The notes below the pieces were generated by a model. That model worked only from the letters and a program-made list of their open reading frames with translations. It made no database searches and was not told the DNA's origin. From Kalaharituber pfeilii (lineage: Eukaryota; Ascomycota; Pezizomycetes; Pezizales; Pezizaceae): a stretch of 64,000 bases of DNA. How positions within the stretch are numbered: position 1 is the first letter of the stretch; each line of letters begins with the position of its first letter. The translations under genes were made by a program, and so were the position numbers. This document shows positions 575 through 60,652 of this stretch, one piece after another. The stretch lies in the NCBI GenBank assembly GCA_015179045.1, contig WHUZ01000008.1:1054001-1118000 (forward strand), in the 5' to 3' direction.

Positions 575-603
575 ATGGTGCCATAGTCTGGTTAATGGAA
601 CCA
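575..603 (+). repeat. Micro-insert 1 (TAGTCTGGTTA) with 9-bp duplication
   Basis: An 11-bp insert (584-594, TAGTCTGGTTA) lies between ATGGTGCCA (575-583) and ATGGAACCA (595-603), which match at 7 of 9 positions. It is identical in sequence to the insert at 40452-40462. Confidence 0.6.
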
Positions 604-746
604 AAAGCGTTCTGCTCGGGATCTTGGCCAGTTTGGTATTTGGATGTATCCCAACCAGCCTAGATGTATCCGATGATTTATAGCATTAACGTTCCTTGAG
701 CACGTGGTGCTGACATCTACTTCCTTTTTTGTCGTCACTTCTAATT

Positions 747-774
747 ATTCCGGCCTAGTCTGGTTATTCCGGCC
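747..774 (+). repeat. Micro-insert 2 with perfect 9-bp duplication
   Basis: A 10-bp insert TAGTCTGGTT (756-765) is flanked by two identical copies of ATTCCGGCC (747-755 and 766-774). Both the sequence and the 9-bp duplication match the other micro-inserts of the window. Confidence 0.75.
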
Positions 775-915
775 ACGTTCGAGAGTACTGAAATCTGATT
801 GGATCACTTGTAATCCAACACTGCTTTTTTTTTTCTTTTTTTTTCTTCTTTTACCCTGGGAATATTATCGCCATCAGGGTCGTGTTCACATCTCGCCTGA
901 CCCTCTGAGTAATTC

Positions 916-945
916 CCTTGCATCGGTTTGAGACTACCCTGCATC
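916..945 (+). repeat. Micro-insert 3 (right-end type) with 9-bp duplication
   Basis: A 12-bp insert GGTTTGAGACTA (925-936) lies between CCTTGCATC (916-924) and CCCTGCATC (937-945), 8 of 9 identical. The insert ends in GAGACTA like the longer copies. Confidence 0.65.
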
Positions 946-3534
946 AAAAAGCGTAGCCTCGTGCCCTGCTTGGAGCGTGTGATTTGGTGAGAGCTGACAG
1001 GCGTCACACAGCTGCAAACCCCCCCATGCACCGTACCATTTTTGGCTCGAGAACTAACTATTTACCTAACCTACCTACATGTATATTAGCGAGCCCGCAA
1101 GCTCAAGCAAGTACTTTGATATCGCATAGCTTGTGGATGCAGGTACTCAGATGTATGTAGGGGGAATCCATTGCAGGTTACACATGCCGTGTGGTGGCGG
1201 CGGCGGCAAAATGTGTGAGAACCAACAGTTTGAGATTCCGAGTACTAGTACAAAGCTACCTTTCAAATCGCGGCTGGACATAACACGCGACGCAACGTTT
1301 AGCCTGGTCCGGCTGCTTCAATGTCCAGTTAAACTGAGCACGTATCAGATCACCATTGTTCAGTTCTATGATGGTCCATTATTTCAGGCTCGCTGCGTGA
1401 GGGTAAAGTTAACGTGTCAACACCACGTGACGCCAGGCTCCAAACTGCATAACTTACAAGTATGTACGTGCTTATCCACATGTACTTACAAGTCACAACG
1501 CCACAAGGACAACTGGTCACTGTATAAGAGATGAATACAGTAAATACATCTTATTGACTGACTATGTAAGAATCAACTTTAGCGGGTGGACACTGGGGCG
1601 GCAGTCTGGGCAACCCTAACCATAGAATTGTTGCTAAAGTGTCCAAAAGCTTGTTTTCTTGACCGTTAGCAGTGGTCGTGCGCATGCCCAATTGCAGCAC
1701 ATCTTGAGCTATGTTGGGTGACCCATTTGGAGTCCGGTATTGTTGCATGGTCTTGTGCCAACGAATCAGGACTGCAGTGCCCCCAAATTTTGAAAACGTC
1801 ATAGGTTCGCATAGACCCCATGGCCATGGATTAGCAATTATTTGACCATGGAAAAGAGCCTCTTCGAGGATCGTTGACCAGACTTACGAGACTAAAACCC
1901 AGACGATAAACCTGCATCCTGAATGTTCGCACAACCCATATATCGCCGCAGGGCCACTTACCTCAGCGCGACAAAGCAAGAAAGCCCGTTGTAATCTTGC
2001 TGCTACACTTGACTCGACTCTGTGAAGCCCGAGCTTGTATTATGTCTGGGACGCAACTAGATCCATAGAAAACTTGATTGGTTATGTTAACTTATCAGGT
2101 TCCTGAATATATCGGGTAAACGTATTTGAGCAACAGAAGAGGATGGAACTCGTAATTTCGCAATGCGTGGCTGAATTTACTCGTCATATCGAGATAAATT
2201 GAGCTTCAACTTGGCTATGCACCTTAAGTAATCCTGATGTCACTGGCTTGCTCGATTCGCAGTCTCGTAGTCCTCAATTGACAATTTGTCCCTGCATTGA
2301 TAGTCGTATACACGAAAGTCAAATGCATAAATAGATCCAAGTGGTCCATCCATGCTCAATATAGCCTCGTCCCCAGGCTCAATACCCCGTTCGTGAATCC
2401 CCAAACGTATCCTAGAGAACTATCAATCCACTACCCGAAACCAGTAGGAATCCTCGCATAACCCGCAGCCTACGCAGAGTTTATGGGCAACCTTCAAGCA
2501 TAACGCTGTTTTATTCCGAAAGTTGCCCAATATTCTCCTGAGCCACAGTAACAATGCATAGCCAAAGTGATAGCACAATCTTCCGATATGTAGAAGTCTG
2601 ATTATAAAAATTGGAAAAATCCTTTAGAAAATGTAGAACCAGTGTGTCCATAGAGAAATCCAATTTGCTCAAGTCCACCCTTGTCGTCCCTAATACTGAA
2701 TTGTCATATTCATAATCGAATACGTATCTGCCTATCAGATGAATGCAGTTGGGTAAATTGTCCCCAGCCCGCTCAGCAAAATGTTTCGTACAAGGTTTCA
2801 AGGATTATAAATAAATGGAGTGCCTTTACGAGTTTCATAATATGTCCATCGGGTACTGTCGGTAGATCATGCTCCCGGTTTCTTTTCTCTGAAACCTGCC
2901 GTGGTGCGCCCTGCATTCGAAACTGCACCTGCATTAGAGATTAGTCCACGTTTGGACAGATTAGTCCACGTTTGGACGTAGTTCTCGTAACTAGGTGCGG
3001 AACGTGTTGATCAATTCAGCAACCTACCCAATCTTGGTATGCATGTAGCCGCAACAGACTGGTAGCTCAGTTTTTCTGCAATGACCGGGGCTTACATGAT
3101 ACGATATCCTTGTACCATGAGATCTCAGACCTCGAAGTAATGTAAAAAAGGGAGATGAACTTACAACTACCGGAACTACGATTTCTCGATCAAGCAGATC
3201 TTTGGCACTGCTCTAGGCGGCTGCAGGTGCATCGTACTTATCGAAGTCACAAGGCTTTGGAGTGGTATCGAGTAGCAAGAAGAGGCATTTTACCTGGCCT
3301 CGTAGCTCACAACAGGTCTGCCATTGGCTTCATCAACCTGTCGGTGCCCCTGTATACAAAAGACAAATATAATATTGTAGATGGCCGCCTGGCAGCATCC
3401 GTAGAATAGCCACTGCTAACATTAGTCTCTTGTAGAACAAAGAAGAGAGGTCTCCAACCTTGACCGAACTATATCTCAATTAAAGGTGTAGCCCCTCAGG
3501 TAGCATCACCCATCTTATATGAAGAGTGCAAGAC
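946..3534. other. Intergenic stretch, no gene recognised
   Basis: Only short ORFs without recognisable domains. Possible decayed micro-inserts occur near 1880-1895 and 2260-2275, but their flanks match at only 6 of 9 positions. A short tandem duplication lies at 2939-2977. Confidence 0.4.
2939..2977 (+). repeat. Tandem duplication, 20-bp period
   Basis: GATTAGTCCACGTTTGGAC occurs twice (2939-2957 and 2959-2977), separated by one base. There are only two units, with no coding context. Confidence 0.8.
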
Positions 3535-3548
3535 GAGATGATGTTCCC

Positions 3549-3608
3549 TTTTCCCTCATAGGGTCGTAGCCTGTATGCGGGGTTACGTGAACTAAAAAAA
3601 AAAAAAAA
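3549..3608 (+). mobile_element. Micro-retroelement, A' type, with TSD
   Basis: Contains the A' tail (GTAGCCTGTATGCGGGG, then TTACGTGA) followed by about 15 A. It is flanked by GAGATGATGTTCCC (3535-3548) and GAGATGTTGTTCCC (3609-3622), 13 of 14 identical, as expected for target-primed reverse transcription. Confidence 0.8.
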
Positions 3609-3622
3609 GAGATGTTGTTCCC

Positions 3623-4036
3623 GCCCTGCGCCTTTAGTTTAGTACTATATCTAGTTGAAATTTCGCATTTCACTTGCTCTAGCAAGCTACGGTACAGCTT
3701 GCTTCAGGTGACATTTCATCAAATAAGCCAAGTAGCGTGGGGAGGTTGGGAGTCAAGGTAAGAGCATTGAGAGATGACAGAAATGAAAATACATGATCTT
3801 CGATGGGGACCGTACCCTACATGCAACTTTTGCTCACACGCCAAGAGAGGGCTTTGATTTCTGCTTGGCAAAGGTAGATCATGTACTCTACATGCACATG
3901 TTTGGTCAGTTTCAAACAACTGTATTGTTGGTATGCTATTGTCTTTCCTGGTTACGAGACTATGTCTTGTGCAATATTTCTGGAAAACAAATCTGCATAT
4001 CAAATACCCATTCAAGTGCAACCAATCCTACCGGAA
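3623..4036. other. No gene recognised; partial micro-insert at 3946-3962
   Basis: CTGGTTACGAGACTA is present at 3948-3962, and the flanks share only TGTCTT (3940-3945 and 3963-3968). The core sequence matches the other micro-inserts but the duplication is weak. Surrounding ORFs are not recognisable. Confidence 0.45.
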
Positions 4037-4382: not shown

Positions 4383-4646
4383 TAAGCTCTATCAACAGTA
4401 GACATGAATATGAGGAAAACCAGCATCTCGGCCAAGGGGTCCCTCTCGCCCTCCTTCGCCTTCGGTGGGTTTCTCACCGCGTCTGCCCTCCTTGGCCATT
4501 TCCGTCTCCTTACTCCGCGTTCATTCCAGATGTATCCGCCGTCTCTTCGGTCTCCTCGCACCACCTGCACTCTGAGCTCTCTTCCTTGCCTATCTTGTGT
4601 CTCCAGATGCCCCGCCATGGCGAAGAGCTGCATGCGGGGTCACGTG

Positions 4647-4680
<34 letters not shown>

Positions 4681-4740
4681 TCTCCAGACTCTGATGCCCT
4701 TACCTCCCAGGAGTCCCGCTAGCGTGGTGTCGATTAAGGT
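4383..4740 (-). mobile_element. LINE 3' coding remnant (minus), split by a micro-retroelement
   Basis: The minus strand has a run rich in R, G and E that aligns by eye with the C-terminal end of the local LINE ORF2 (compare the DPLAE ending near 4440 with the ends at 35035 and 61930). Sequence on the far side of the insertion (4689-4735) continues the same LINE and resembles 49860-49890. No intact frame, no tail and no TSD were found, so this is an old fragment. Confidence 0.55.
4608..4679 (+). mobile_element. Micro-retroelement, A type, nested in LINE remnant
   Basis: A core (CCCCGCCATGGCGA, then GCTGCATGCGGGGTCACGTG) followed by about 30 A. GTCTCCAGA is repeated at 4599-4607 and 4680-4688. 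The LINE remnant continues on both sides, so this insertion is younger than the LINE. Confidence 0.8.
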
Positions 4741-5679: not shown

Positions 5680-8600
5680 TTAGCTGCACACTTGCGATAC
5701 TCCTCAACTTGCACAAGCTGTACTAGGCCAGGATATTCAACCCTAGTTTCTAACACATGGAGCCACTGAGAAATGATCCGAAGAGCGACTTTGGGGGTTC
5801 CGTAGTCATAGTAACTTCGAAGGCTGGCTACTCTAGGTTGACGGAAAATCTGAATTTCGAGTAACCTTTGAATACAATTGATAGTATCAATACAGGCACA
5901 AGACTATGCCAATGTAAGCCTGTATACCAGAAGTCATAAGGTTATATATCGACAATGCTGACCAGAGTAGACCATGGTGCCCCTGCTTGTAGCCTCGAGT
6001 TATTGTATACCTTTATATCTTTACTTTTTATATCATAAATGCTATATATTTTTCAGTTCGTATACGGCCCTGCTGGACTATGGCCAGGCTAGGATGACGT
6101 GTATGAAAGGAAACCTATATACTATAAAGCTCCAACACAACCTTTCCATCTTTAACGGCCCTCTCCATAGGGTTTCCATCACCGTCTCCACGAACACTTG
6201 AACTCTGTCCACCACCCCACACTCTGGTTAGAAGTCTCCGAGTTGAAATTGCCCGAGTGTTGAGTTGATTTGTGCGTTAGCCAGTATGAGAATATCTCTT
6301 GGTGTCATCTGAAGAAGCAGTCGTTGCCGCCCCAATCACAAATATAGGGTTCAGTCTGCAAAACACAAGACTACGAATTCTACACGAAAAAATCCGATTG
6401 GAACTTCAGTCTCTAAAGATGAAGGAGAATGGCTATGGGGCGCCACCATCGTACTCGGTCTATAGGGCGTCCTCAAACGCTCGCCCGATCATTCTGTAAA
6501 CAAATACAGACCACAAACTGATCAGGGGTTCTGAAATCGAAAACTTAGACGCATATGCATGTCCATCTGAATCTAGATTCATTATTTTACCAGGTAATCT
6601 TGAATAGGAGTAGATTAATTAAAGTTAAAAGTTAAATACTTGATATATATGCATGAATCCGTGAACCGTGAAAGTGTATGTAGGCTTAAGCTACGAGACT
6701 AGGCTTGATTTAAATGTATTGTACATAGATTTAATACTAAGCAGTAGTACATACTCTACATTAGTCTTAGTCTGGTTGAATTAGCCTGGTTTGGGCTCAG
6801 ATGGATTAAGTATCTCACTAGTCTGGCGGTGCTGAACACTAAATAGAGTATCAGTAGGTACTAATACTTCGTAGTTGCCAGTGCACACTTCGCAGCAGCT
6901 TGCAGCCAAACTAAAAGCTTAATGTGGCTAAGCACAACATAATTCCAGGTACTCCTACGAATGGTAGAACTCTTTGAGGCCATTTTTGATATCAATAACA
7001 CCCATGTAGCAACCATTTCATCATTGCCTACAAGTTCGGTACTCCTGTTTGTACATGCGTGCTTTCCTTAAACAGTAGCCTGGTTGCTGAAGAGCACACT
7101 TGAGGATTTACACTCAACATTGGCACTGTACCTGCATAGACAAGCTATTACAGGAGAATTTTTTTAGTAATCTTTCTCCTAATCAGGGCAGTTGCACTAA
7201 ACCAGGTACACCAGGTACAATCTCGTAACCTTCGCAAGTTACAAGTCGTTGGTACTTTTGTGTATGTTGTCGCTAGCCGGCAAATATTGAATGGTGCTAT
7301 TTGGAGGAAATAACTCGCTCAGGATGTACGTACTAATACATACATGGAAAGGCAATCAGGTACTTCTCTAAGTACTGACCTACCAGATCAACTCTAAGTC
7401 CTTGACATGACTCCGAATGATTAGCATTCAGGGCAGCCAAATGATTGGTCGCTAAGAAATTACCTCTACGCCTTTTGCCCGCGGCCTCCGGTTTGACTAC
7501 TACAGTTCAACATGTTGAGATTATCTGTCATGTACAAGGCGTATCTCTAGTGTCCATCTGTTCCCGTTTGTTTTCCTGTGAATACCCTAGGATGTTAACT
7601 TCTTGAATAGAAGTCTCATGCCCATATAATAGTTTGGGTCAATGATGTTGATACCATATAGAAATATATACGTGACTAGAGTAAGTAGACTACTAGCTAT
7701 ATTCACTCCATTGAGAATCGCCATTCGGGCTGAAAATCACAATCGGATGTGATCATGGGGCAGACGATTACCTAAAGTGAAGTACTAGATAGTATCATTA
7801 CGGTGATCACAAGTAAATACACAAGCAAACTGTACTCCTGAGCCATAATCATGATTCATATAATAGGAGCTTTATACTAGTGTTCGTTTAGATGCGTGGT
7901 ATTACGAGAATCTCGCACAAAATGTTGGTATGGGTTGACGAACTCTGAGGCTCGGTCCACCTGTGCAATAAGATTTAGCAATTTGCAGTTCTACACGTTC
8001 ATGATGCCTTCTTCCTACCCTAGCAAAAGAAGGGTGACTAACTTCTTAGCCAATTATCTAGTTACGGCACTAGTCACTCTCAAGCTATTCAACGGTACTG
8101 GCATTCTAGGGTGTGGCATGGACGAAATGCAAGAGGATGTTTACAATATGCATTCCAAAGAAGCTATAGCTTTCACAAACAAGTATTCAATTACTGTACA
8201 AGCCTACTGCACCGATACTGTTCTATCTACTAAAGATTAGGGACCAATCGTCTCAATTGCAACGAAATATCCCACGATTATATGAATAGGCGCTGAAATA
8301 TTTGCAGAATAAGGCGAGCAGTGGACTTAGCAAGGCTCTCAATATACACAATGGTTGCACTCACGCTGCATATAGGAGGCTGGCAATGGCTTCATGCGTT
8401 TACTACTGGGTGAATCTACGCACGCCACTCAATTAATGTGAGCACAGAAATTCAATACAACGCATTTAGTTACTTGACAATAAATGTATATATACACATT
8501 GCTAGGACCGTGGGACTCTCCTGGAGTTGGATACTAGTATGTACTCACTTAATTATAATCTTAAACATGATCGACGCTGGACAAATTGCAGACTGGAGGG

Positions 8601-14400: not shown

Positions 14401-14442
14401 GCAATATCCTAGTCTCGTAACCAGACGCTGACAGCAATATCC
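14401..14442 (-). repeat. Micro-insert 5, extended form, with perfect duplication
   Basis: GCAATATCC occurs at 14401-14409 and 14434-14442 (10 bp if the preceding A is counted). Between them is TAGTCTCGTAACCAGACGCT followed by GACA. This is the reverse complement of the 15-bp right-end type, extended by GCGTC-side sequence, and so shows more of the parent element's end. Confidence 0.8.
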
Positions 14443-22503: not shown

Positions 22504-24541
22504 CATCGGCTGCTTCAATTGGGTATCTAGAATTGGTATAAGATACGAGGTAAGTCGCCCAGCAGAAAGCAGATTCGTCATTTGTGTCTATCAAAGCTTA
22601 ATGGAGAACGAGCTGTGCGACTGCGAGGTCTCACATGGTCAACCAGTCAGCCGCCTACGATGTCAACAAAAACTGTGAAAAATAGTGGTCTACCCAACGC
22701 AGTAGCTTGGCTTTCAATCAGCAGGGCTATTTTTAAGAATATATGTACCTGCGACTTGCAACTCCATTGACTGGGTGGCAAGAAAAGCCGCCGGCTCAAT
22801 GTTCTCGTTCCCAAACCTAATGTCGGATGTGCTGCTCTGCAATTATCTTGGCTTAAATATTGGTGCATAGGCGGTACTAATCTTCCGGTACCTACACCAG
22901 CACTGCTCATCCGAGCCACTGCCGATTGTCCTTTCAATTTGCGTGCGACAGATCCGTCCTTAGATTACGTTTTTGCGATGCTTCTTCGGTATCAACAAGA
23001 CTACTTGTAAGACACCAAAGGGAGAAAGACTATGCACACTTAAATTTTCCGATTTTCCCCACAAGATTAACTTGATCCTGAGTCGAGGGGCCAACATCCA
23101 GACCACTTAGAAAACTGGTACCTGGGTCCGAAGCAAAGCTGCGCTAGGTTCACTCAAACTTCTTTGGTTTGCCAAATATAGCTTGCTGTGTACAATATCT
23201 AAAGTACTCCATGATAGGATATATCAATTTAGCCCTTACGTATGCCCTGTGAAAGGATCCGCGCTCGGGTTTATCGAGGTGCCTTTCTCTGCGGGAGCTA
23301 TTGGTGTATTCCTTACCTGGTGATTTCTGCTCTCTGCAGGACCGTGCCCCGGGCGAATGGTTTGTTTTGAAATGGTTCCGAATTTCGAGATCCTCCACAA
23401 AAGCATGCGAATTGATTCTCAGCCCGTACGAGAACACAAACTACAAGTACTCAAGTATTCGCTTAGGCTCGTGCCTACTATGTAGGCGAAAGAACAATCT
23501 TCTTGCTCTTGTACCCCCCGATCTTAGACGTATGGGGGCTCGCGTATTAGTTCAAGCTTTGCGGAGACTAGTTCAAGTTTTCAGATTAGGCTTGGCTGTC
23601 TCAAAATCGTCTCTAGATCCCCATTCTAGCGTCCAACGGTTTGTCTACATGTATATCTCAACCAGCATTTGTCTACGCAATCGAGTATGAGGGTGCTTAG
23701 AGGTCGAGCTCGAGCCTTGAGCGCACTGCATGTGCAAAGTATAAGAATATACGAGTGTATGCTGAGCTACAATACTATGATGATACATACAGATACAGGC
23801 AGCTGCATCAGGATTACGTGGCGATAAAATCAAATCACGGCCACGTGTCTATCATTCTTGCTACATTTCTTATTCCAGATAGGTATAACGGTGTTACGGC
23901 CAGTCTGTATGTGTGACTGTTAACAACGGACATGATATACCTTCCCATATATATATATAACTGGCTGCCGCAATGACGCTTCACTAAGCTCAACCCAATG
24001 GGGGCAGGAAATTCTAGATTGGGAGCTCGTACTTGCTAGCATTCTACTGGAGGCACTTGCTCTCCGTCGCCAGTTACGTACTTTAACGTTTACTCTTCCA
24101 TTCTGCTCGAACTATAAAGGCCTTCCGCAGATCTCATTTTGTGAGAATGTGTGCATGTGTGTTCGTAATTTTATTCTCATTCCGGCTGTTTCATTTTTCT
24201 ACTTTGGTCGCACTGCAGGATACAATTCCTTCGCTTTTTTGCTTTTCTTAGCTTTACTTCGGAAACGTTCTGGATTTGGAAGCGTTGAGTACTACAACCT
24301 ACAGTATTGCGTTGCTTTCGACGAGCACGTGAAGGTGTGCCAAGACCGGCTGGCGATGGATTGATATCCGCAGCACGTGACTTTTTGCTGACAGCAACGT
24401 TCCTGCTGCCCATGGCTGTGTACCAGTACAGGCGCTTTAATTCCAATTGCAATATAGTACCCCAAGGTAAGAGATTGCCGAGCTCTGGCTGTGTCCACAG
24501 CAGTCCCTTGTATACAGTATGGCTTTGGAAGCCCCATTCTC
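22504..24541. other. No gene recognised; one micro-insert
   Basis: Short frames only. A micro-insert lies at 23550-23579. The AT dinucleotide run near 23950 is short. Confidence 0.35.
23550..23579 (+). repeat. Micro-insert 6 with 9-bp duplication
   Basis: TTGCGGAGACTA (23559-23570) is flanked by GTTCAAGCT (23550-23558) and GTTCAAGTT (23571-23579), 8 of 9 identical. The insert ends in GAGACTA, like the right-end type. Confidence 0.6.
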
Positions 24542-26138: not shown

Positions 26139-28184
26139 TACATATATACACTGGCATTATTCCACAATCCCATTCAGCCTCTAGATCAATTGTTGCTCGC
26201 AACAACTGTTTTTAAGCATACACTTATAAGTCCAAAGCTGCTAAGTACCCGTTCCAGTTTTTCTTAACCCTCATCCAACGATTCCGCGCATTCTTTTGCT
26301 CTATCTAAAGGTCTAATGCAAAAACGTGGAACGTTTTAGGGCTTAGTCTCATATGAAGGCTCCAATCTGCACAACGGACAGCTAACAATAAATATTATTA
26401 CCCTAACCGGAGGGTTGCTTTATAGGAAAGCCGAGATATGGAAGCTTTTAACCATAATTTCATCCAGTTGACACTATGTAGGGCTGTAACTACTGAGCTC
26501 GTGGTCCGTGTTCACAAGTATGGAGAAATCGTCGCAATTCCGTTGCCCGGCGCGCGCGTTGCAATGAAGCTTATGAGAAACCAGCAGCCTTGACTCCGTT
26601 CAAACTTTTGCGCACAAGTTGTGTAGCTTCTCCATGAATACTGAAATAGCCGAACCAAATCTAAGCCGTTTGCGAAACATGTCTGAGGCGACGAGACTGA
26701 ACCGGGGTGAGTTAGTTGGCCTTAGCATATATAGGAACTATTTAAGCCCTACTATCCCTTGGAGTTGCGAGACATACATCCGAGCTGACTACCCCCCTCC
26801 CTTTGCTCCACTTTGGAGTACCCTTCATAAAGTCACTAGAAAATCAATAAATTAGAAGAAATTACAGAAAAATAATAGACCGTATGAATGGGCGTCAAAA
26901 ATCCTCATTCTTGTTCACAATTCAAAAGGAGCATTTTTGGTTGAGTCGCTGTGTTTTCACAGGGGGTCATCTGGTATGCACGTGTTGCAACCCCAAGGGA
27001 TATCATACCGTTGACCCGTCAGCCGCTGCTACGGGACGATCACGAGGCTACCCGCCCGCTAGCATAAATCAGAATTTAGCCGATATCTCTTGCCAGCCAT
27101 TCCCCTGGCCATCCTGGCGATTTGCCATGTGTTTTCCTGATCGTAACCTCAACGGAGTTATTTGCGCAGCTTACTACCCGAATGGTATCTCATTGGCTCT
27201 CATCTCACGACTCAAGGCTATATTGGGGTACAAGGAAGGTTATGTCTCCTTGAGAGATTGGGATATATTGTATAAAGCAGAGAATAAATCTGCTCATGGG
27301 AACATGAAGAAGGGATAGCACTCATGCTTAGTTAATTAGATAGATCACTTGATCTTCGAGGCTGCAGCATTGGTATGATCCTGAATCTCCTGTCGGGAAC
27401 GCCAATCCGCATCGTGACAGTAGGCACTTTCATAGACGTAATCTCGCACTTTTTCCACTCTCACTGGAACTGGTGTCTTCACGGCCAAGCCGGCAATGGC
27501 TGATTCGCCTCCTATTTTCGACCCGTAGATGGTACATGCACGTGGCTCATCAACCACAAATTAAGTGTTCTCCACGACAGTGGATGACTTCCCGTCGCCC
27601 AGATTCCCATTCCCAGACGCTTATCAGCGCTCCATCTCCCAGAAAATTTTCAACCCCCCCTTTAGATTTTAGAATCTCGACGCAGTCCCCCCCCCCCTCT
27701 GCCACATTCCTAGATTCTCAGAACACGCTCCCAGATATCGAACTAGTAAAAAATACGTTAGACAATGAGAAAAAATGCGTCAAACCACAACACCAAAAGT
27801 TATTGCATATAGATTTAAACTCTATTTTCTCTATTATACATCAAGTGCTTTATTATTCACGCCTTTTTAATACTATTTGGTCTACAAAAAAACAACAACA
27901 ATGAAAGCAGTTTTATTTAGTTCAAGCATTGTAGATACTAGGAGAAGACTCTAAGGAGAATCAGCAAGAGTATGAATAGCTAGTGACAGCTAAATAGCTG
28001 TACATGCGCTGATAATGTACATGCTGGCGATATAGTAATGCAGAGAGTGGTGATGCTGTAGCCATCTTGGTTAGAAATTGCTGACAAATATTTTGAGAGT
28101 TTAGACGGGGAATTGGGGTCAAGCCCAGAATTTGGACTGGGCGTCTGGGAATGGCGACCGGAAGTCATCCAGTAGAGAGCTTTG
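26139..28184. other. Unassigned, one short hypothetical ORF
   Basis: The frame 26884-27318 (plus, 144 codons, Cys-containing) is the longest; I do not recognise it and would not call it a gene without transcript evidence. 27570-27905 is C- and AT-rich with no domain. Confidence 0.3.
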
Positions 28185-39819: not shown

Positions 39820-39852
39820 AGTCTGGGGCTGGTTACGAGACTAAGTCTGGGG
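39820..39852 (+). repeat. Micro-insert 7 with perfect 9-bp duplication
   Basis: CTGGTTACGAGACTA (39829-39843) lies between identical copies of AGTCTGGGG (39820-39828 and 39844-39852). The insert is identical to the one at 45687-45701. Confidence 0.85.
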
Positions 39853-40442: not shown

Positions 40443-40471
40443 TGGTAGAGTTAGTCTGGTTATGGTAGAGT
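40443..40471 (+). repeat. Micro-insert 8 with perfect 9-bp duplication
   Basis: TAGTCTGGTTA (40452-40462) lies between identical TGGTAGAGT copies (40443-40451 and 40463-40471). It is the left-end type. Confidence 0.85.
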
Positions 40472-45180: not shown

Positions 45181-46984
45181 GGAGATGCCGTCATGTTTAT
45201 ATTTGTGTTTTAAAATCTTTAATGTTTTCTTTTATTACTCTTCTGGTATGGAATTTGACGAAGATTTGACGAGATTTGACGAGATTCCGAGTTTTTTTTT
45301 TTTTCCTTTTTCGTTCTTTTTTTCAGGGAGGGGGGCCTACTAGAAAAATTTATGCTCAAATATTGATTAATGAATACTCTAAACATTGTATGGGATATTA
45401 GTGGCCTGTTGATTTTCACTCCTGATTTTATGTAACTGCTTGTGACTCTTATGGAATCATTCTGCTTTGGTAACGTAACGTTCGGCCTGTTAATTCTAAT
45501 GAGCGCCCAAGAATGTAGGTTTGTGGGTGTCCACAGAGCCTGGGCACCGGAACAGGTTCAGGCAGAAACTCTCTCCACGGCTATCATCAACACTCCCTCC
45601 AATCACGGCAGCTACCAAATCCGGTTCCCTCATCACGACGCATCACAATTGAAAGACAATCTTGATCACTCTTGGCGGATCGTTCCCTGGTTACGAGACT
45701 AGATCGTTCCTTCAAAAGTGTAAAGTTGGCATTATGATTTTCACTCCGCTCCCAGTCCATTCACTCCTTGCGCTTTGTATTCCCGACCCTATCCAAGGGC
45801 GTACAACGTAGCTTCAATTTTTTTCATTTTGCCAGCGTCTTCGTCCATCGCTACTGATGGAATAATCCACGTGCGATAGTCGACTGCAGCTTAACCAACA
45901 AAAAGCAAACTCGCCTACCGGAGAAGCGTGCTGTATGCATGCTCTTAAGGTAGGTTGGGTTTTTTTTATTTTACTTTTATTTATATCATATTTTTTTATA
46001 TTCTAACACCAGTTAAATTAGGAAAGTTTGGTGCGTAGATGTGAGTACATATGATTCGAACTAGTATATGGTCGGGTCCTTATTGGCCGTTGAGAGCCAG
46101 AATCATCTCCTCTTTCGTGCTGATTGGTTGGTGAGGTTGGAAGCCTCCATACTGCTCTTTCTATGGTCCTGCTCTTATCCCACCAGATCAGCGCTATGCT
46201 ATCGTCAAAATTCTGAAACTTGAAGCAATCAGCAAGAACTGACCGGGGTCATTTCAGAGTACCTAGTGCATAGCGCTCTTGCCTCTCCTGCATGGAAGCA
46301 CCTTTTTGGGATTCCCCACTTCTCCACCTGCATTTTTCACAGAGTTCAAACTTTGGCAAAGGTATCACTTTTACATAAGTGCCGTTATGCCTGCATCCTC
46401 CAATGCACATTTCTCTTCCTTCCTCTCTCCAGCAGACTGGAACAGTTCAACAAATGTGGCGTCAAAAGTGGAGTGCTGTGTATCATCCATCTACTGAGAC
46501 AAAGTCAGGTCTGCATGAGCAAGAGGGAGCTAAATAGACACGGCACCGGGAGTTGCTCATCCTACAAATCTTCCTGCGCAGGATATCTTGGGATAGCTTG
46601 CTCAAGCTGTGCAGAGTACTCGAGTACAATCGGCTTGTAGCAAATTCACACTGCGCCCCCACAGTCATGAGCAAAGACCGCCACATTTGCCAAGATGCGT
46701 GCGCTGCCAGGCAACCTTGGCCCGAGGCTAGCCTTCATCTCTGCTTGCATTAAGACATCCCTGTTGTGTAAGTGCAACATCATCGCTCTCTAACATGGTA
46801 ATAATAGGAAGACACAAAACGGCTGGCGCTTTGGATCAACACGAGAGTTTTTGCCAAGTCGTCGCTCGCTCAAAACTTGGTGCAATAAGAAATGACGATA
46901 CCCTGATGAAATTCTTTGCTAGAAAGCTTGATGCATTCGAATCGCTAAGTTTTATATAGGGTGTATAGACCAGAAAATGGTTGA
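45181..46984. other. Intergenic between regulator and dehydrogenase
   Basis: Contains the regulator's 3' flank, a micro-insert (45678-45710), T-rich tracts near 45290 and 45960, and short unassigned frames (46266-46640 and others). The dehydrogenase promoter should be in its right end. Confidence 0.4.
45678..45710 (+). repeat. Micro-insert 9 with perfect 9-bp duplication
   Basis: CTGGTTACGAGACTA (45687-45701) lies between identical GATCGTTCC copies (45678-45686 and 45702-45710). It has the same insert as 39829-39843 at an unrelated target. Confidence 0.88.
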
Positions 46985-48765: not shown

Positions 48766-49491
48766 GAGGTGTCAATATTGTTAGCTGAATGAAATTGGAT
48801 TGACAGGCTTTTGCTACGTGTACTGAAAATGTTTTTGCTACAGTACTACCTTCAGTACGTGATTTTGTCGTGTACTTAGTTTTTTTTACTTGTACCGAGT
48901 CATTAGTCTGGAATTGAGTTACTTGAAACCAGTTATGTGCTTCATCTACAACGTTGAAGGGGCGAAAGGACTATCAGATATCCTCTCACGTAGCTCATGC
49001 CTTTGACCTATTCGGCCGCTACTAGCTTAAGGACTGCCAAGCCCATATAAGTGACGGGCTACAATATTGTTACTTGCCTGTACTATATGGAGACTCCATT
49101 CCATGGCAATTCAACAGAACTTGAGAATTCGTGTATAGGGATTTAAGAAATGTTAGAAAGTGAGAGAGAAGGAAGGGGGTTCGTGAGCACCTCGAGCCTG
49201 ATGTCACGTGGTGTTAGTAAGCCCGTCCAAGTCGAGACTAGCATACAAGTTAGACTCGAATAAAGTACTGTCGCTGCTTGGCGCAAATATGGTACTTCCT
49301 GTTCGATACACCGTATCAACTCAATAGTAACAATGCTGTTTCATGGCCGAGCGTAGTCTGGTTCGGCCGAGCGCGCAGTCCGCCAGTCCCCTAAAATACT
49401 GTCTTATTTGAGAAACTACACTAAGAATACGCTTTACACGACCTATCCAACCACATATAACGGCCGGGCACGAGAACAATAACGGTCCAAC
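48766..49491. other. Intergenic with one micro-insert
   Basis: Downstream of the dehydrogenase. No gene; a micro-insert lies at 49345-49373. Confidence 0.35.
49345..49373 (+). repeat. Micro-insert 10 with perfect 9-bp duplication
   Basis: TAGTCTGGTTC (49354-49364) lies between identical GGCCGAGCG copies (49345-49353 and 49365-49373). Confidence 0.85.
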
Positions 49492-49500
49492 CAGTACATG

Positions 49501-50622
49501 CCTTTTTTTTTAAAAAAAAATTAATAATATCAGTACTCGCATGCCGCCCTATGGGCTATGGCGAGAAATTACAAAGGAAATAATGAAATAGAGATAAAGA
49601 CATTGTGAAGATCGGAAAGTAGGTAACACCTAGCCAAGTTATCTCTCCACCAACCTCGGTAAGTCCAACACGGGGTCCCCTTACCCCCATGGCCGGAGGC
49701 CTGTATATCGCCTCCAACACCCCTGGCCATCCTCCACGCCTCGGACCTGTCCCATATGTGTGTCGCTGTTTCCTCCTGCTCTCTGCACCATCTGCACCAT
49801 CTGCATTCCACGCTATCCGCCTGGCCCACCCTGTGCCTCCAGGCTCTCACACCTTTCCTTCCTAGTAGGCCCGCCAGTGTTGGCACCATGCCTCCCAATC
49901 TCTGCAATGACCTGTAGCTCAGGCCTAGTCTATTCCTCTCCTGAGCCCGTTGTGCCTTTGTCGTCATGCGCACGCCTGCCTCCGTGACTGTTTCTGTCTG
50001 GTAGAGTAGGAAGGCTCCTACCTTCGCTGCCTTGTCTGTCTCATTTCCCTTGATGCCCTTGTGTCCTTTCACCCACATTACCGCTATGTCCAGTCCTCCT
50101 CGGGCCACCCTGCCCTCCCAGACTCCCCTGCATATCTCGCTGGAACCATCTGGGGTTGGCCTCCCCTTTGCAATCTTCTTTAGCTTGTCAATCGCTGATT
50201 GCGAGTCTGATATGACTAGGATCTCCTCATCCCCTTTATTGAGAGCTCTGGATATGGCTATCAGGTCAGTGTCATTAACTGTGGGCCCTGTACCTAAGTA
50301 AGCCGGCTCCCTCCTGCCACCCCACCGAATGCCTGCCCCCATCCTCCCCTGGGCCTGCTGCTGTCTGTGTATACTGATTTCCAGCCTTCATCCTCTGCCT
50401 CCGTGATCTTCTCTTCCCACACCTCTTTCCTCGCTGCTGGTGTTAGTGAGGTGAGGTGAGGTGAGTACTGCCAGTGCAATTGGCTCCTTCCATCCCAGAC
50501 TGCCCCTCAGGTAGGTGTGGTTCTCCTCTTCCTCCAGTAGTCTTCCCTCTCTGAATCTCAGAGCCCGGCCCTCTACTCTAGTCCTTTCCCCTTCTATGAA
50601 TATTACGTGCTTTGTTTGCCAA
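49501..50622 (-). mobile_element. 5'-truncated LINE (B tail) with RNase H domain
   Basis: On the minus strand it encodes the ORF2 C-terminus in two frames: WKSVYTDSS (about 50365, the first RNase H aspartate region), ILVISDSQSAIDKLKKIAKG (about 50210), DIAVMWVKGHKGIKGNETDK (about 50070), then a Cys/His segment VECRWCR...THIWDR (about 49770-49810). A frameshift near 50340 separates the first from the rest. It ends in the B tail (CTCGCATGCCGCCCTATGGG, 49535-49560). A weak duplication CAGTACATG / CAGTACGTG (49492-49500, 50623-50631) may mark the limits. Confidence 0.75.
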
Positions 50623-52192: not shown

Positions 52193-52201
52193 TTGTGGGA
52201 C

Positions 52202-52262
52202 GCCCTGCCATGGCGAACAGCTGCAAGCAGGGTTATGTGACAAAAAAAAAAAAAAAAAAAAA
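52202..52262 (+). mobile_element. Micro-retroelement, A type, with 9-bp TSD
   Basis: TTGTGGGAC is repeated exactly (52193-52201 and 52263-52271). The body is GCCCTGCCATGGCGAACAGC then TGCAAGCAGGGTTATGTGAC and poly(A). Confidence 0.9.
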
Positions 52263-52417
52263 TTGTGGGACTCCAAAACCAGAGTACGCACAAGACCGGT
52301 AAGGCAGGCCACTGCCTCCAAGCTACTATATGAATGCCGGAGAATAGATGCTCACAAGAACTCTTCTTATTGACGGGAATCTTGATGCTCAGAATGTCCA
52401 AGTTATTGAAAACGGGA

Positions 52418-53199: not shown

Positions 53200-53232
53200 T
53201 ACAACAGCTAGTCTGGTTGACTACACAACAGC
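53200..53232 (+). repeat. Micro-insert 11 with 9-bp duplication
   Basis: TAGTCTGGTTGACTA (53209-53223) lies between TACAACAGC (53200-53208) and CACAACAGC (53224-53232), 8 of 9 identical. The insert has TAGTC...GACTA ends. Confidence 0.75.
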
Positions 53233-54423: not shown

Positions 54424-55316
54424 GGGCATGAGCCCTCTCCCATGGCGCAAGGCGTATACTGGCATAGTAAGGGCGGTAGCTCTTTGGGGTTCCGAGATCG
54501 GCTGGAGGGGCCAGAGGAAATGGAGAGAGGAGCTTGAGAGGCTCCAGTATCAGGCCCTTCGTAAGTGTACAGGGGCGGTTCAGGGAGTGGCGAGGGAGAA
54601 TCGCAGGTGTCGAAAATGTGACCACAATCCTGGATCAGAGTCAGGCGAGGTATGCATTAAAGTCAATAAGGGACCCTACAGGAGTAGGGGACCTATGGAC
54701 TGAGAGCTTCAGAGGGATTGAGGTTGCAGACCCCGACAGGGAAGGGGAGAAGGGGAGAGACTGGAGAGACTTTAGCCTAGGCCATACCACAGAGAAGAAT
54801 GACGGGTTTGAGTGAGCAGCCGGAAAGATCGCCAGCACACTCGAGGTCGATGAGGACGAGGAAGTGTCCTGGGGACGAGAGGTACAACCACCTGCAGCAG
54901 AAATTGAGGTCATCGACCTCAAACTGGGCAAGGAGGATTCTCGAGCCAAGTGGGAGGAGGCTATCAGCAAGGCCAAGGGCGATCAGTAGCCATTTTCACA
55001 GATGGCAGTCACTGTGAGGAAGGGGGAGTTGGAGGTGGATGGGTAGGCACAAAAGCCACTGTATGCGATGACGAGGTCTTAGGCATGAGGGGCGCCCTTG
55101 AAGCTGTCAATAGCAGGGCGAAGATGCTGCTGCTTGCAGACTCTCAGGCAGCCATCAGCGCAGTCAAGAGAGCAGGAAAAACTGGCAAGGCGAGGACTGC
55201 GGACCTGGCGCGCATGGTAGAGCTTGTGGCAGAAAGGCGGCGGAGGCTGAGAGATGCTGGGGCTGTGAAACTGGCATGGGTGAAGGCTCACGTAGAAATT
55301 GAGGGCAATGAGAGGG

Positions 55317-55354
<38 letters not shown>

Positions 55355-56026
55355 TTTCACGTGACCCCGCATGCAGCTGTTCGCCAAGGCAGGGCCCCTG
55401 GGTCTAGACCCTCAAAGCCCGGAGGCAGGCTTGTGAGAGGGCAGATGAGAAGGCGAAAGAAGGAGCTGCCTGCTTGAGGTATGATGGACAAGCTACAAAA
55501 GGTGGTCTGCATCAAGAGAGTTAGTCAGGAAGAGGAAGGAGGAGAGGGGACGAGCTGGTTTTGGTAGTCTCATCTGGTTTTGGAAGAGGAAAATTTGTGA
55601 GGCGGTGCAGAAGGGCCCTCACCAACTACACCTGGCTGCGGACCGGGAAAGGTGGAGCCATGTGGAGGAGGAAAACCAGTGGTGAGGAGGTGCGATGCAG
55701 CTGCGGGGAGGCTTGGAGTGCAGAACATGTGGTATTCAAGTGCAGCGAGCTGGAACGGCTCAAGAGAAAGAGGAGAATGGTGAAATGGTCACCTGGCGGT
55801 GCTGGGAGGACTTAGAGGAGAAGGGGTGGAGGGGGACGCAGGAGGGAGGAGGGGCTAGCCGTAGGACCGGAGGGTACATTAGATGCCCAATGTATGTATA
55901 TAGCGAGTGGGTGTAGATAGGTAGTTGCTTGACCTGACCCGGGTATATGGGTCCCTGCCATAGGCTGGTAGCCTGTATGCGGGGTTACGGGACTCGAAAA
56001 AAAAAAAAAAGAAAAAAAAAAAAAAA
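54424..56026 (+). mobile_element. 5'-truncated LINE (A' tail), RT-thumb to RNase H, with exact 11-bp TSD
   Basis: CCTGCGTGCCT is repeated exactly (54413-54423 and 56027-56037). The plus strand encodes the end of the reverse-transcriptase region (GIVRAVALWGSEIGWRGQRK, about 54460-54520), then RNase H motifs IFTDGSHCEEGG (about 54990), LLLADSQAAISAVKRAGK (about 55130) and VKLAWVKAHVEIEGNERAD (about 55265-55320). After a nested element it continues with NYTWLRTGKGG and a Cys/His segment CSCGEAWSAEHVVFKC (about 55695). It ends CCTGCCATAGGCTGGTAGCC, TGTATGCGGGGTTACGGGAC and poly(A). Frame changes show it is dead. The TDGS, DSQ and GNExAD residues identify the RNase H. Confidence 0.9.
55322..55433 (-). 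mobile_element. Long-form A micro-retroelement inside the LINE RNase H region
   Basis: TGAGAGGGCAGAT is repeated exactly (55309-55321 and 55434-55446) within the LINE codons for GNERAD. The insert is about 30 T, the reversed A core and the extra 5' part ending AAGCCCGGAGGCAGGCTT. Confidence 0.93.
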
Positions 56027-57307: not shown

Positions 57308-57318
57308 TTAGTAAGATG

Positions 57319-57580
57319 AGAGCAGTAGTACTGAGAGCACTGAAGTGGATCAGTGCAGCAAATGCGCTTAGTAGTCCATACGAGCTTTACAGCGCACAAG
57401 GGCTTGGTGAATATACCATGGTACCGGCCGAATTTGATGTTGACAGCTAAGATTTAAAAGTGAACGCGCCGATGATGAAAGTTTCTCCGCATTGTTCCAT
57501 GAAGATCTTGATTCCACATAGCCTCCTGCAGTAGCTTGCCACTGCAGCCTACATCTATCTCTACAGCTTAGTCAACCTAC
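57319..57580. other. Unassigned, possible host-gene remnant
   Basis: The minus-strand frame at 57662-57824 just downstream (EYKVFTVYTNLATSFALLAG) looks like part of a membrane protein. This segment may belong to the same decayed gene, but I cannot name it. Confidence 0.25.
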
Positions 57581-57588
57581 AGGGCCCT

Positions 57589-57653
57589 TTTTTTTTTTTT
57601 TTTTTTTTTTAATATCATTACTCGCATGCCGCCCTATGGGCTATGGCGAGTAG
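57589..57653 (-). mobile_element. Micro-retroelement, B type, short TSD
   Basis: Poly(T), AATATCATTACTCGCATGCC, then GCCCTATGGGCTATGGCGAG. AGGGCCCT flanks at 57581-57588 and 57654-57661. The body ends at the base of the B hairpin. Confidence 0.82.
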
Positions 57654-57661
57654 AGGGCCCT

Positions 57662-57824
57662 GTGAGTTAACCGAGTGATTCTGGAAGGCTTCGCGGAGGG
57701 GTTGGCTATATACCGCAGCGAATCCTGCCAGTAGCGCAAAGGAAGTAGCTAAGTTAGTATATACAGTGAAGACCTTGTATTCCATGAATGGCGCGAGCCG
57801 GTTGGCAATGACGGCGAGAGGCAT
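57662..57824 (-). pseudogene. Possible membrane-protein fragment
   Basis: Minus-strand MPLAVIANRLAPFMEYKVFT followed by VYTNLATSFALLAGFAAVYS and QPLREAFQNHSVNS, a hydrophobic helix plus a polar segment with a coherent coding look. It is broken by stops upstream and by the B-type insertion immediately downstream. I do not recognise the family with confidence. Confidence 0.3.
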
Positions 57825-58201
57825 GCTACAGTAGGTTCCTTAGAGGGCGATTGGAGGAGTCTCCAATTTGTTGATGCCATATCTAAACGAAGTCAGCAGG
57901 TTGGATATTTAGGCAAATGCTAAAAAGGCATACACATTTCAGTACGAAGGCGACGTTCTATTTAGCAGCTTCGATGGGTATTCCTCCACCAGCATGTCCA
58001 TGGTGCAGCATAAGTCGGCAAGATGACAAGTGAGTCAATCTTTGAACGTTTGACGTCCCGGGTCCTATTCAAATGGTGAAGCGTTTCTTTCACCCGAACT
58101 GTTCACTTCATAACCATTGGACTCATTTTGCAGTTTGAGACCCAATCATCAAGGGAAATTTAAAGAAAATCGAAACGAGAGTTTAGCCTGAAGATTTCCG
58201 C
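57825..58201. other. No gene recognised
   Basis: May contain upstream exons of the fragment at 57662-57824 (minus), but no frame is continuous. Confidence 0.25.
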
Positions 58202-58210
58202 ATTCATGTT

Positions 58211-58268
58211 ATTTCGCCGTAGCCCTCTGGGCGGCATGCGAGTAATGATATTAAAAAAAGAAAAAAAA
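58211..58268 (+). mobile_element. Micro-retroelement, B type, with 9-bp TSD
   Basis: ATTCATGTT is repeated exactly (58202-58210 and 58269-58277). The body is TTCGCCGTAGCCCTCTGGGC then GGCATGCGAGTAATGATATT, with an A-rich tail. Confidence 0.9.
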
Positions 58269-58326
58269 ATTCATGTTTCGATTTCAGAAAAGGTGAGTTG
58301 ATGCAATATCATACACTTCAAGAATA

Positions 58327-58357
58327 GGTAGGATAGTCTTGTAACCAGGGTAGGATA
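58327..58357 (-). repeat. Micro-insert 13 with perfect 9-bp duplication
   Basis: GTCTTGTAACCAG (58336-58348) lies between identical GGTAGGATA copies (58327-58335 and 58349-58357). With the TA shared with the duplication, it equals TAGTCTTGTAACCAG, one base different from the reverse complement of the 15-bp type. Confidence 0.8.
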
Positions 58358-58737
58358 AGAGATTTGGAGCAGGATGAAGGTGCTTTCTCTGGAGTCAAAA
58401 TGACATACTTCCCAGTAGGCACAGGCGATGTAGGATCACCGAGGCCGACAGGTAGAACACCCGGCCCAAGCCCAGGAGAATGGCTAGGACCGGCCGCTAG
58501 CTGCAAGTAAGAGAAATAGCTCAGCTGGGAAGCAAAAAAGAATTAGGTGGTTTTTCTTCTTGGTATTCTTCACCTGAAGTTAACGATATATAGAAGAGGA
58601 AAATGGAAGCTAAAACTGGCTGACCTTACTTTATCTCCAAAGGATTTGGGGATGCCAGAAAGTCTAGTTAAAAAAAAAAAAAAAAAAAAAAATCAGTACT
58701 CGCATGCCGCACTATGGGCTATGGCGAGGTGTAGTTA

Positions 58738-58740
<3 letters not shown>

Positions 58741-58772
<32 letters not shown>

Positions 58773-58807
58773 ATAACCCCGCTTGTAGCACTAAGCCATG
58801 GCAGGGT
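58741..58807 (-). mobile_element. Micro-retroelement, A type, with exact 14-bp TSD
   Basis: AGGTGTAGTTACAT is repeated exactly (58727-58740 and 58808-58821) inside the LINE 3' UTR. Poly(T) then the reversed A core (CACATAACCCCGCTTGTAGC, ACTAAGCCATGGCAGGG). Confidence 0.93.
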
Positions 58808-58929
58808 AGGTGTAGTTACATGATAAGATAAACGGTTGTGTAGTCAAGGAAATAAAAATGAAAAGAATGATACAGGCTCCGTCTCCCCTAACGTCCCATC
58901 CACCCAAGGAGGTGATATGTCCGGTCCCT

Positions 58930-58994
58930 TTTTTTTTTTTTTTTTTTTAATTTCATTAATCGCGTGCCGCCCTTTGGGCTATGGCGATGTTTAA
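58930..58994 (-). mobile_element. Micro-retroelement, B type, with exact 13-bp TSD
   Basis: ATGTCCGGTCCCT is repeated exactly (58917-58929 and 58995-59007). Poly(T), AATTTCATTAATCGCGTGCC, GCCCTTTGGGCTATGGCGAT, then GTTTAA. It is nested in the LINE fragment above. Confidence 0.93.
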
Positions 58995-59040
58995 ATGTCC
59001 GGTCCCTGCTTCTTGTCCCTTCCGATCCAGACAGTCTAGT

Positions 59041-59786
59041 GGCAGACAGTAAGTGGCATACTACCGCGCTACAGCAGTCTGCTGCCCTTCATATGTACAT
59101 ATTAAAGGTCTATATACGTAAGGACTAGCCTCGTCCGGTAAGGCCGCCTGATGTCGCCCTGACTTCCAACGTCCCTAACGTAGGAATTCTGCGGGCAAAC
59201 TAATTACGAACAAAGTTCTACATGGAAATTGAACTCAGAACCTTGGGATATATGAACTGTCATCGCCCATCAGATCTGAACGCAAGAGCAGGTTGACCAA
59301 CATGCTCAGAGAAGTGTTATTTCTTGGAAATGGGCCTGAATACTTGTTCAGTTCCCTGACAGTCAGCTGGACAGACCTCCCGCGGGCGTACCATTACCAG
59401 CCCCCGAGTGGTATCCATAGCTCCATTTACAATCTTCACCTTTACCCACCGATTTCTGTCCCAATCACGCGCGCGTAGACTCAATAATACCAGTGGCATC
59501 AAATCCAATGTCTTTCGATGTAGGTTTCTAAACAACTGACATACTTAATATCATTGTGTGCGGAATCCTTAGCAATTGCACGATAACAGGAGATCTACCC
59601 TATAAAATGGGCCATAAGGAAGTATCTTATAGCCCAGGGAGCTGCGGCCTTCTCCACTATAGTCCTTATATGCTAGAGCCTCATATCAGCTGAAGGCAAT
59701 GGCATGTATAGAATTTCGATAAACTAGCAACAGGTTCTCTTCGCCGAACGTACTTACTACCCTGCTAGCCCCTCATAAGGTATAGC
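59041..59786. other. No gene recognised
   Basis: Short frames only. Confidence 0.35.
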
Positions 59787-59854
59787 TCCCGGCCATAGGC
59801 TCGTAGCCTGTATGCGGGGTTACTACGTGATCAAAAAAAGAAAAAGAAAAAAAA
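59787..59854 (+). mobile_element. Micro-retroelement, A' type, no clear TSD
   Basis: CCCGGCCATAGGCTCGTAGC then CTGTATGCGGGGTTACTACG, with an A-rich tail broken by G. No duplication was recognised in the flanks. Confidence 0.65.
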
Positions 59855-60206
59855 GCCATTAGCAGGTTTAGCCGGAGCGAGTGTTGGAGTCCCTTATTAG
59901 CAAAAGGCCTTTCTCAATTGGTAGTAGCCGATGACCCAGTTGCTGCGGTAATTTTGTGGGTTGTTGACCTAAGGGTGCATTTTGCTATTGAACGCTAGAA
60001 TTGGCCTCTGGAAAGGGTCGAAGGTTTAAGTCACAGAATTGGGGCATGGAGCCCATTGCCGTCTCGCGATGCTCAGAGCTTGCATTGTGCTGATGCAGTG
60101 GGATCCATACACACTGGACAATCTAGCTCGGAGGCTATTGAGACCATGCTAGAGACGAGAAGGAAGTGCCACTCTGAAGAACTTGGAGCTGGCAAACTAC
60201 TAGGTG

Positions 60207-60250
60207 TTTTGCCTGCCATAGGCTGGTAGCTGTATGCGGGGCTATGTGAT

Positions 60251-60297
<47 letters not shown>
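60207..60297 (+). mobile_element. Micro-retroelement, A' type, with 8-bp TSD
   Basis: ACTAGGTG is repeated (60199-60206 and 60298-60305). The body is CCTGCCATAGGCTGGTAGCT then GTATGCGGGGCTATGTGATC, followed by about 46 A, one of the longest tails here. Confidence 0.82.
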
Positions 60298-60300
<3 letters not shown>

Positions 60301-60589
60301 AGGTGAGTACGAACTCCTAGTAGGTGTACTTAAGTATACCTGAAGCAGAATTGAATCAATGTGACATTTATTACTCACGAGTCTAGGCATGTATAATATT
60401 AGTACTAGTCGGTGTAGGTCCGAGATGACTGTGTGCGTGCGTGTAGTTTGACTAAATCGTAACCAGACTCGCTTCTGGAGGTTAGCGTGTTTCACCGAAT
60501 TGGGCAGTCATTTCCGCAAAGGGATATACTTACATGCCGCACTAACGTTGCTGCCAAGCACTGTCTTCTTAGCTATCTCAAATCACTAT

Positions 60590-60652
60590 GCCAACTGCTA
60601 GTCTCGCTGGTACGACCGCTGACTACGTCTGGTTAAGAGACTACCAAACTGC
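60590..60652. repeat. 45-bp element with TAGTCT/AGACTA ends (longest micro-insert)
   Basis: The insert 60599-60643 starts TAGTCTCGCTGG and ends GTCTGGTTAAGAGACTA, i.e. it has inverted ends. Flanks are GCCAACTGC (60590-60598) and CCAAACTGC (60644-60652), matching with a one-base gap. It contains both end types seen separately elsewhere. Confidence 0.7.

Follow-up and report, generated by a model that had tools for sequence, protein, structure and literature searches.

The P element is cut with a 17-nt stagger inside its inverted repeat (PMC7776569, PMC10983969) and leaves 17-nt 3′ tails (PMC2895639, PMC7776569). According to Table 1 of PMC2895639, most of its footprints retain some of each tail or else a short piece common to both, and one footprint class, of three isolates, approaches a single whole tail. 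Here we examine short inserts with TAGTCT...AGACTA ends that lie between 9-bp direct repeats in a 64,000-nucleotide stretch of the Kalaharituber pfeilii genome (contig WHUZ01000008.1, positions 1,054,001 to 1,118,000, forward strand; hereafter the window). Judged from sequence, these micro-inserts are probably excision footprints of short non-autonomous cut-and-paste DNA transposons, similar to miniature inverted-repeat transposable elements (MITEs), with a 9-bp target duplication and a staggered cut 15 nt inside the repeat.

Two families of parent element, A and B, are described below. Like P and THAP9 elements, they would combine a long stagger inside the repeat, which we infer here from the scars, with a footprint of repeat sequence between retained duplications and with joining of tails by microhomology (as described for P in PMC2895639). 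Unlike them, families A and B have a 9-bp duplication where P has 8 bp; the repeat sequences differ, and THAP domains are, in the sources consulted, reported to be restricted to animals.

Other systems share other features. Sleeping Beauty footprints are described as identical to its own 3-nt 3′ overhangs (PMC7827188), and Stowaway-like scars as retaining the duplications plus a little element sequence (PMC4561436). In Tc1/mariner elements and Stowaway MITEs, as would be the case here, the footprint is the tail of a staggered cut and the duplications are retained (PMC7827188, PMC4561436). Tc1/mariner differs in its TA duplication and tails of 2-3 nt, against 9 bp and a putative 15 nt here. By analogy, the favoured scars would resemble Tc1/mariner in form and the P element in tail length (17 nt), the tail length being their only odd feature.

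Mutator-like elements (MULEs) have 8-10-bp duplications, and their non-autonomous members carry varied cargo (PMC5225508). For the MULE Muta1, the authors of that study infer a cut outside the repeat and report about 90% precise excision with 8-9-bp duplications; where the constructs lacked donor duplications, as much as 13 bp of the repeat occasionally remained. The 9-bp duplications of families A and B fall within the MULE range, and both groups include non-autonomous elements. MULE repeats are typically longer than 100 bp. Here the perfect inverted repeats are 21 bp in family B and 59 bp in a 132-bp copy of family A, and the long elements were read for 30 bp at each end. Muta1 excision, as reported, is mostly precise, and none of the MULE-domain matches listed for the genome lies in either long element. 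Footprints at excision sites are also a property of hAT elements (Ac/Ds). The hAT target duplication is 8 bp. Ac/Ds footprints, in contrast to ours, are described as palindromic flanking DNA and not element sequence (PMC4561436), and a hAT match is absent from both long elements. In a non-exhaustive search of the literature on fungal MITEs with footprints or 9-bp duplications, we found no described family with these ends, and the four end sequences occur in none of the papers searched for them. MITEs and footprints are already known, but a one-tail 15-bp scar with a 9-bp duplication in such number fits no tested family.

Inserts and duplications across the genome

The genome searched comprises 78.0 Mb in 360 contigs (C1, C112, and so on). 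The 15-mer CTGGTTACGAGACTA, the right type of the original prediction, occurs at 777 places, and its reversed sequence, taken as a control, at none. For the 11-mer TAGTCTGGTTA, the counts are 345 and 31, and for the 19-mer that was proposed as the common source of the inserts, 48 and 0.

To assess the duplications, we sampled 34 exact 15-mer places. They come from 30 loci (among those labelled L001, L004, and so on) returned by the genome search with this 15-mer, from 200 kb of contig C1, and from the window itself; one element contributes both of its ends to the 34. A 9-bp repeat matching at eight or more of nine positions within 40 bp was present at 23 of the 34, perfectly so at 16, whereas 9-mers taken more than 150 bp from the site gave 0.46% (at most one mismatch) and 0.02% (perfect). 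The 9-bp repeats exceed chance. Among the 11 remaining places, three (L001 twice, L012) form the ends of longer elements and have their repeats 78 or 103 bp away, and one (L018) has 25 bp and a repeat with two mismatches. The other seven show no outstanding repeat (window 3948, L013, L021, L025, L026, L028, and L029); in L013 and L026 the 15-mer runs on into a longer repeat.

Within the window, re-reading the 12 sites originally listed recovered every insert and repeat. The seven cases called perfect have 9/9 repeats around inserts of 10, 24, 15, 11, 15, 11, and 13 bp, and the repeats of the five weaker cases match at 7, 8, 8, 8, and 8 of nine positions. At 60599, the long form spans 45 bp between repeats that match at 7/9. 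There are four occurrences of TAGTCTGGTTA in the window (0.03 expected) and seven of CTGGTTACGAGACTA at up to two mismatches, four of them exact (0.09 expected). TAGTCT is accompanied by 9-bp repeats (at most one mismatch, spacing 8-40 bp) at nine window sites, against a mean of 0.34 for 6-mers that contain three or more different letters. It is outscored by five 6-mers and tied by some, and those shown resemble triplet-repeat words. A similar count over the window plus the repeat-rich 200 kb of C1 did not single out the motif: TAGTC scored 26 against a mean of 11.5, and among the 59 further orderings of the same letters four exceeded it (up to 63).

The window sites are as follows.

39820-39852, minus strand: family-A footprint; duplication AGTCTGGGG, 9/9; 15-bp end remnant at 39829-39843.
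45678-45710, minus strand: family-A footprint; duplication GATCGTTCC, 9/9; 15-bp end remnant at 45687-45701.
58327-58357, plus strand: family-A footprint; 13-bp insert GTCTTGTAACCAG, its terminal TA merging with the duplication GGTAGGATA, 9/9.
14401-14442, plus strand: family-A footprint; insert of 24 bp from the left end, made up of 23 bp of repeat and an A; duplication GCAATATCC, 9/9.
60590-60652, plus strand: degenerate family-A mini-element of 45 bp with both ends (about 27 bp left, about 16 bp right); repeats 7/9.
3948-3962, minus strand: exact family-A 15-bp end remnant; duplication unrecognisable, the best match (7/9) being at chance level.
747-774, plus strand: footprint; insert TAGTCTGGTT of 10 bp (11 with the next A); duplication ATTCCGGCC, 9/9.
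40443-40471, plus strand: footprint; insert TAGTCTGGTTA of 11 bp; duplication TGGTAGAGT, 9/9.
49345-49373, plus strand: footprint; insert TAGTCTGGTTC of 11 bp; duplication GGCCGAGCG, 9/9.
575-603, plus strand: footprint; insert TAGTCTGGTTA of 11 bp; repeats 7/9.
53200-53232, plus strand: footprint; insert TAGTCTGGTTGACTA of 15 bp, a left end joined to the last bases of a right end; repeats 8/9.
916-945, minus strand: footprint of another TAGTCTC-type end; insert TAGTCTCAAACC of 12 bp; repeats 8/9.
23550-23579, minus strand: footprint of another TAGTCTC-type end; insert TAGTCTCCGCAA of 12 bp; repeats 8/9.
6681-6708, minus strand: probable old footprint; 10-bp insert; repeats 8/9.

Parent elements

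Family A starts with TAGTCTCGTAACCAGACGCTGACTAAGC (TAGTCTCGTAACCAG followed by ACGCTGACTAAGC and further bases) and terminates in the reverse complement of that start. Short copies measure 61 bp (on C1, duplication 9/9), 78 bp (L001, 8/9), and 103 bp (L012, 9/9), and a 132-bp copy at C24:686759-686890 has the duplication ATACCTCGC (9/9) and a perfect inverted repeat of 59 bp. Two long elements, of 3,244 bp (C317:369236-372479, duplication TGTAAAACC, 9/9) and 5,881 bp (C112:2209771-2215651, duplication CCTCTGGCC, 9/9), agree in the first 30 bp at both ends, the 30 bp per end being the part compared. In a further candidate, C12:153478-156058, the flanking 9-mers mismatch, and it was rejected. 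The family-A 28-mer repeat is found at 74 places genome-wide.

Family B (TAGTCTGGTTGCACC...) is found at 163 places, and copies of 51 bp (CATGAGAGC, 9/9) and 52 bp (8/9) have perfect inverted repeats of 21 bp. Both families consist of short, multi-copy elements with terminal inverted repeats and target duplications, and are MITE-like in this sense. Scars from further ends that share TAGTCTC occur at window 916, window 23550, L008, and C1. Intact short copies are few, with four inward pairs within 150 bp among the first 100 15-mer places listed.

The original view that the duplications mark real insertion events is well supported, and so is the view that the inserts are excision footprints retaining both duplications. 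Inverted repeats and perfect 9-bp duplications occur together in full elements, and the inserts are pieces of such ends between two retained duplications. The inserts are not, however, sub-pieces of a single 19-mer, as had been proposed, but pieces of at least two terminal inverted repeats. Full elements beginning TAGTCTCGTAACCAGACG, which were expected to carry a transposase, do exist with perfect 9-bp duplications, but no transposase of their own was found in the stretches read from the long elements.

Scar sizes

Position 15 of the repeat is the preferred stopping point of family-A remnants. Exact genome counts along it are 881 for the 14-mer, 777 for the 15-mer, 430 for the 16-mer, and 74 for the 28-mer; the count falls by 12% between the 14- and 15-mers and by 45% between the 15- and 16-mers, with the next repeat base absent after 347 of the 777 15-mers. 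We estimate that about 350-460 family-A remnants stop at 15, a range that allows for a chance T after the scar (which raises the figure) and for elements with another base at position 16, such as L001 (which lowers it).

The position of the second duplication at the 23 repeat-bearing places gives inserts of 15 bp in ten cases and 14 bp in three; the rest are of 17 bp (one), 19 bp (three), 24 bp (one), 25 bp (three), and 30 bp (two). Registers of 10-13, 16, 18, 20-23, and 26-29 bp were empty among the 34 sampled places. In the 14-bp cases, the missing C doubles as the last duplication base on that side. Two of the 19-bp scars are the 19-mer itself and one is 15 bp plus ATGC, while a 25-mer, TAGTCAGCGTCTGGTTACGAGACTA, recurs in L009-L011. 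The 30-bp remnants, L004 and L007, have lost the first 15-16 bp or so of one end and kept the following bases, starting near position 16-17. Site L006 is nested: a 13-bp scar of another TAGTCTC-type end (duplications 8/9) encloses a family-A footprint, which is flanked by a duplication of its own, GTATGAGAC. The older scar predates the arrival and departure of the family-A element.

Some remnants occur as same-orientation pairs (G000:C2:713537/713561 and G000:C68:728557/728585), with spacings of 24 and 28 bp that equal remnant length plus 9; they look as if the unit of duplication plus scar had doubled in tandem. We also considered whether footprints seed minisatellites. AGACTA occurs in one of 97 arrays with units of 14-45 bp, against a mean of 0.93 over 6-mers, and the idea was rejected. 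In L027 (238-381), a 17-bp minisatellite of 8.5 copies has AGACTA in its unit; a scar origin is in general unsupported.

Search for a transposase

The genome contains 71 listed matches to the MULE domain (PF10551), none of them within either long element, and 29 to hAT (PF05699), again with none inside. Searches for P/THAP9 (PF21787) and for KDZ gave no matches in this genome, and both were silent in the control genomes too.

Within the 5,881-bp element lies a DDE_3 (Tc1/IS630-like) frame (E 5.5e-10), which has 36 matches in the genome. Twelve other copies at 98-99% identity were compared and had no exact family-A 28-mer within 20 kb; three predicted right ends of such copies also lacked the family-A repeat, although indels could have shifted these ends. 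Since the copies compared lack the repeat nearby, the gene was rejected as a partner of family A, and it is probably a nested passenger. This gene (G000:C112:2212413-2212808, L076) has recently multiplied and is preceded by a minisatellite.

In the 3,244-bp element, L077 (G000:C317:370401-371300) holds a 142-amino acid frame that matches no Pfam family and has a minisatellite behind it; in a Kalaharituber protein, the coding sequence continues through a similar repeat. Over 27 residues, a frame in a long element is 96% identical to a protein of Kalaharituber (desert truffle, Pezizales). The reading of the long elements covered their ends and a further 1,400 and 900 bases, and a transposase could lie elsewhere in them. 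A diverged autonomous copy with a MULE transposase may also be present elsewhere in the genome.

Proposed excision model and alternatives

The scars suggest a 15-nt stagger. The transposase would nick one strand at the junction of element and target and the other strand 15 nt inside the repeat, and the broken chromosome would keep two identical, non-complementary 15-nt tails. These would be 3′ tails if, following DDE chemistry, the transferred 3′ end sits at the tip as in other DDE transposases. End joining that retains one whole tail would give a 14-15-bp footprint, arranged as duplication, 15 bp, and duplication, in either orientation. Alternatively, short complementary stretches of the tails might anneal, or the tails might be trimmed. 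In the 19-mer, AG at positions 14-15 of one tail would anneal to CT at positions 5-6 of the other; its 48 copies represent one product that annealing of two 15-nt tails permits, and it is probably a joining product of two ends and not a parent. The 30-bp remnants of L004 and L007 could arise if the element side of the cut were re-attached after trimming. As the complementary outcome of a cut near position 15, they are counted in favour of such a cut.

Several observations weigh against this model. None of the five other 2-nt annealings, with products of 10-19 bp, was seen with a duplication in the 364 kb examined, although that sample is biased against them because 30 loci were fetched by a 15-mer that these products lack. 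The DNA examined yielded no convincing empty or filled counterpart sites for 63 candidate inserts; these were listed mechanically, and some are chance or minisatellite cases. The ends have not been tied to any transposase, and we infer the favoured cut from the scars. Most P scars, as tabulated in PMC2895639, are not of the single-tail kind, unlike most scars here, and L012 also has a 15-bp scar made of pieces from both ends (TAGTCTCGGAGACTA). A 15-nt cut does not predict the 10-11-bp class, TAGTCTGGTT(A), whose 11-mer is the one found at 345 places. From the first 25 listed 11-mer places we took 20 (four were parts of 19-mers and one was overlooked); repeats were present at 8 of the 20 with at most one mismatch and at 12 with at most two, against control rates of 0.9% and 7% per site, and 9 of these 12 sites have inserts of 10-12 bp. 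This class could be a trimmed family-B end, equal to the first ten bases of B, or a secondary family-A product. Family B itself speaks weakly for 15 bp, with one perfect 15-bp case (C1) and one 13-bp case (L017); eight further family-B places on C1 gave one 16-bp scar (8/9, by eye) and no clear 15-bp scar.

The original assignment to Mutator would make the inserts MULE footprints, with ordinary cuts at or near the tips and variable repair leaving 10-25-bp remnants. A 9-bp duplication is typical of MULEs, the genome lists 71 matches to their domain, and the Muta1 constructs described in PMC5225508 show that up to 13 bp of repeat can be left. Yet none of the 71 matches falls inside the 3,244- or 5,881-bp element, Muta1 is inferred to cut outside its repeat and mostly excises precisely, and variable repair predicts no step between positions 15 and 16. 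We therefore find membership in Mutator unsupported, and consider this explanation unlikely. Resident elements might instead have been deleted internally, whether through replication slippage, microhomology joining, or gap repair that was aborted, and no fixed transposase cut would be needed. A family-A element could yield the 25-mer of L009-L011 through deletion at TAGTC-TAGTC microhomology, and at window 60599 the 45-bp form has been deleted internally with both ends kept. In the commonest sampled product, however, one whole end is gone precisely up to the duplication, and of the other end exactly 15 bp remain, at target sequences that are unrelated. Because a 15-bp insert holds one end and nothing of the other, internal deletion would need two precise breakpoints, where a staggered cut gives this outcome naturally, and we judge deletion a rather poor explanation of the scars.

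The original prediction also raised a minimal mobile unit, in which the 10-45-bp pieces insert themselves. The same short sequences do recur between 9-bp duplications, and two-ended elements of only 51-52 bp have duplications of their own. But the commonest sampled insert carries a single end, full elements that account for the pieces exist, and no transposase known to us inserts 15-bp DNA with a single end while duplicating its target; such a unit is very improbable. Repeat-rich parts of the genome yield many 9-bp repeats around unrelated motifs, as an artefact of chance or tandem repetition would require, but the genome-wide counts (777 against 0) and the repeats at 23 of 34 places (0.46% expected) contradict it, and we regard this possibility as negligible. 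Excision by a staggered cut remains our preferred explanation. More tentatively, the enzyme might be a fungal transposase outside the tested superfamilies, with a 9-nt stagger at the target and a 15-nt stagger inside the repeat, whose breaks are sealed with one complete tail.

Other features of the window

A 133-bp candidate element at 26344-26476 has TAGTCT/CACTA-type ends and 8/9 flanking repeats, and perhaps belongs to an older family. RNase H frames (PF00075) at 49569-50342 (minus strand) and 54950-55477 (plus strand) are probably retroelement remnants. A repeated stretch at about 4599-4690 and at 52193-52280, with the core CCATGGCGAA(C/G)AGCTGCA(A/T)GC, a GTGA-type end, and a long A run, resembles a short retroposon; similar stretches occur on C1. 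One window frame contains a Fungal_trans domain. A search on a transcription factor gave 97 proteins, the best of them 59-66% identical.

Significance

Laboratory assays, the usual way to study footprints, deal with small numbers of them. Here, hundreds of scars of a single family seem to be preserved in one genome, outnumbering recognisably intact copies, so that statistics can be applied to where the cut falls and how it is repaired. The scars also account for tiny insertions that would otherwise be overlooked or mistaken for a new mobile unit. If the 15-nt stagger is correct, long staggered cutting would not be special to the P elements of animals, and the scars would record how a filamentous fungus joins long non-complementary tails. 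A fungal transposase of the kind proposed would then join the P element as a second natural example of transposon excision with a long stagger, with several hundred readable scars in one genome.

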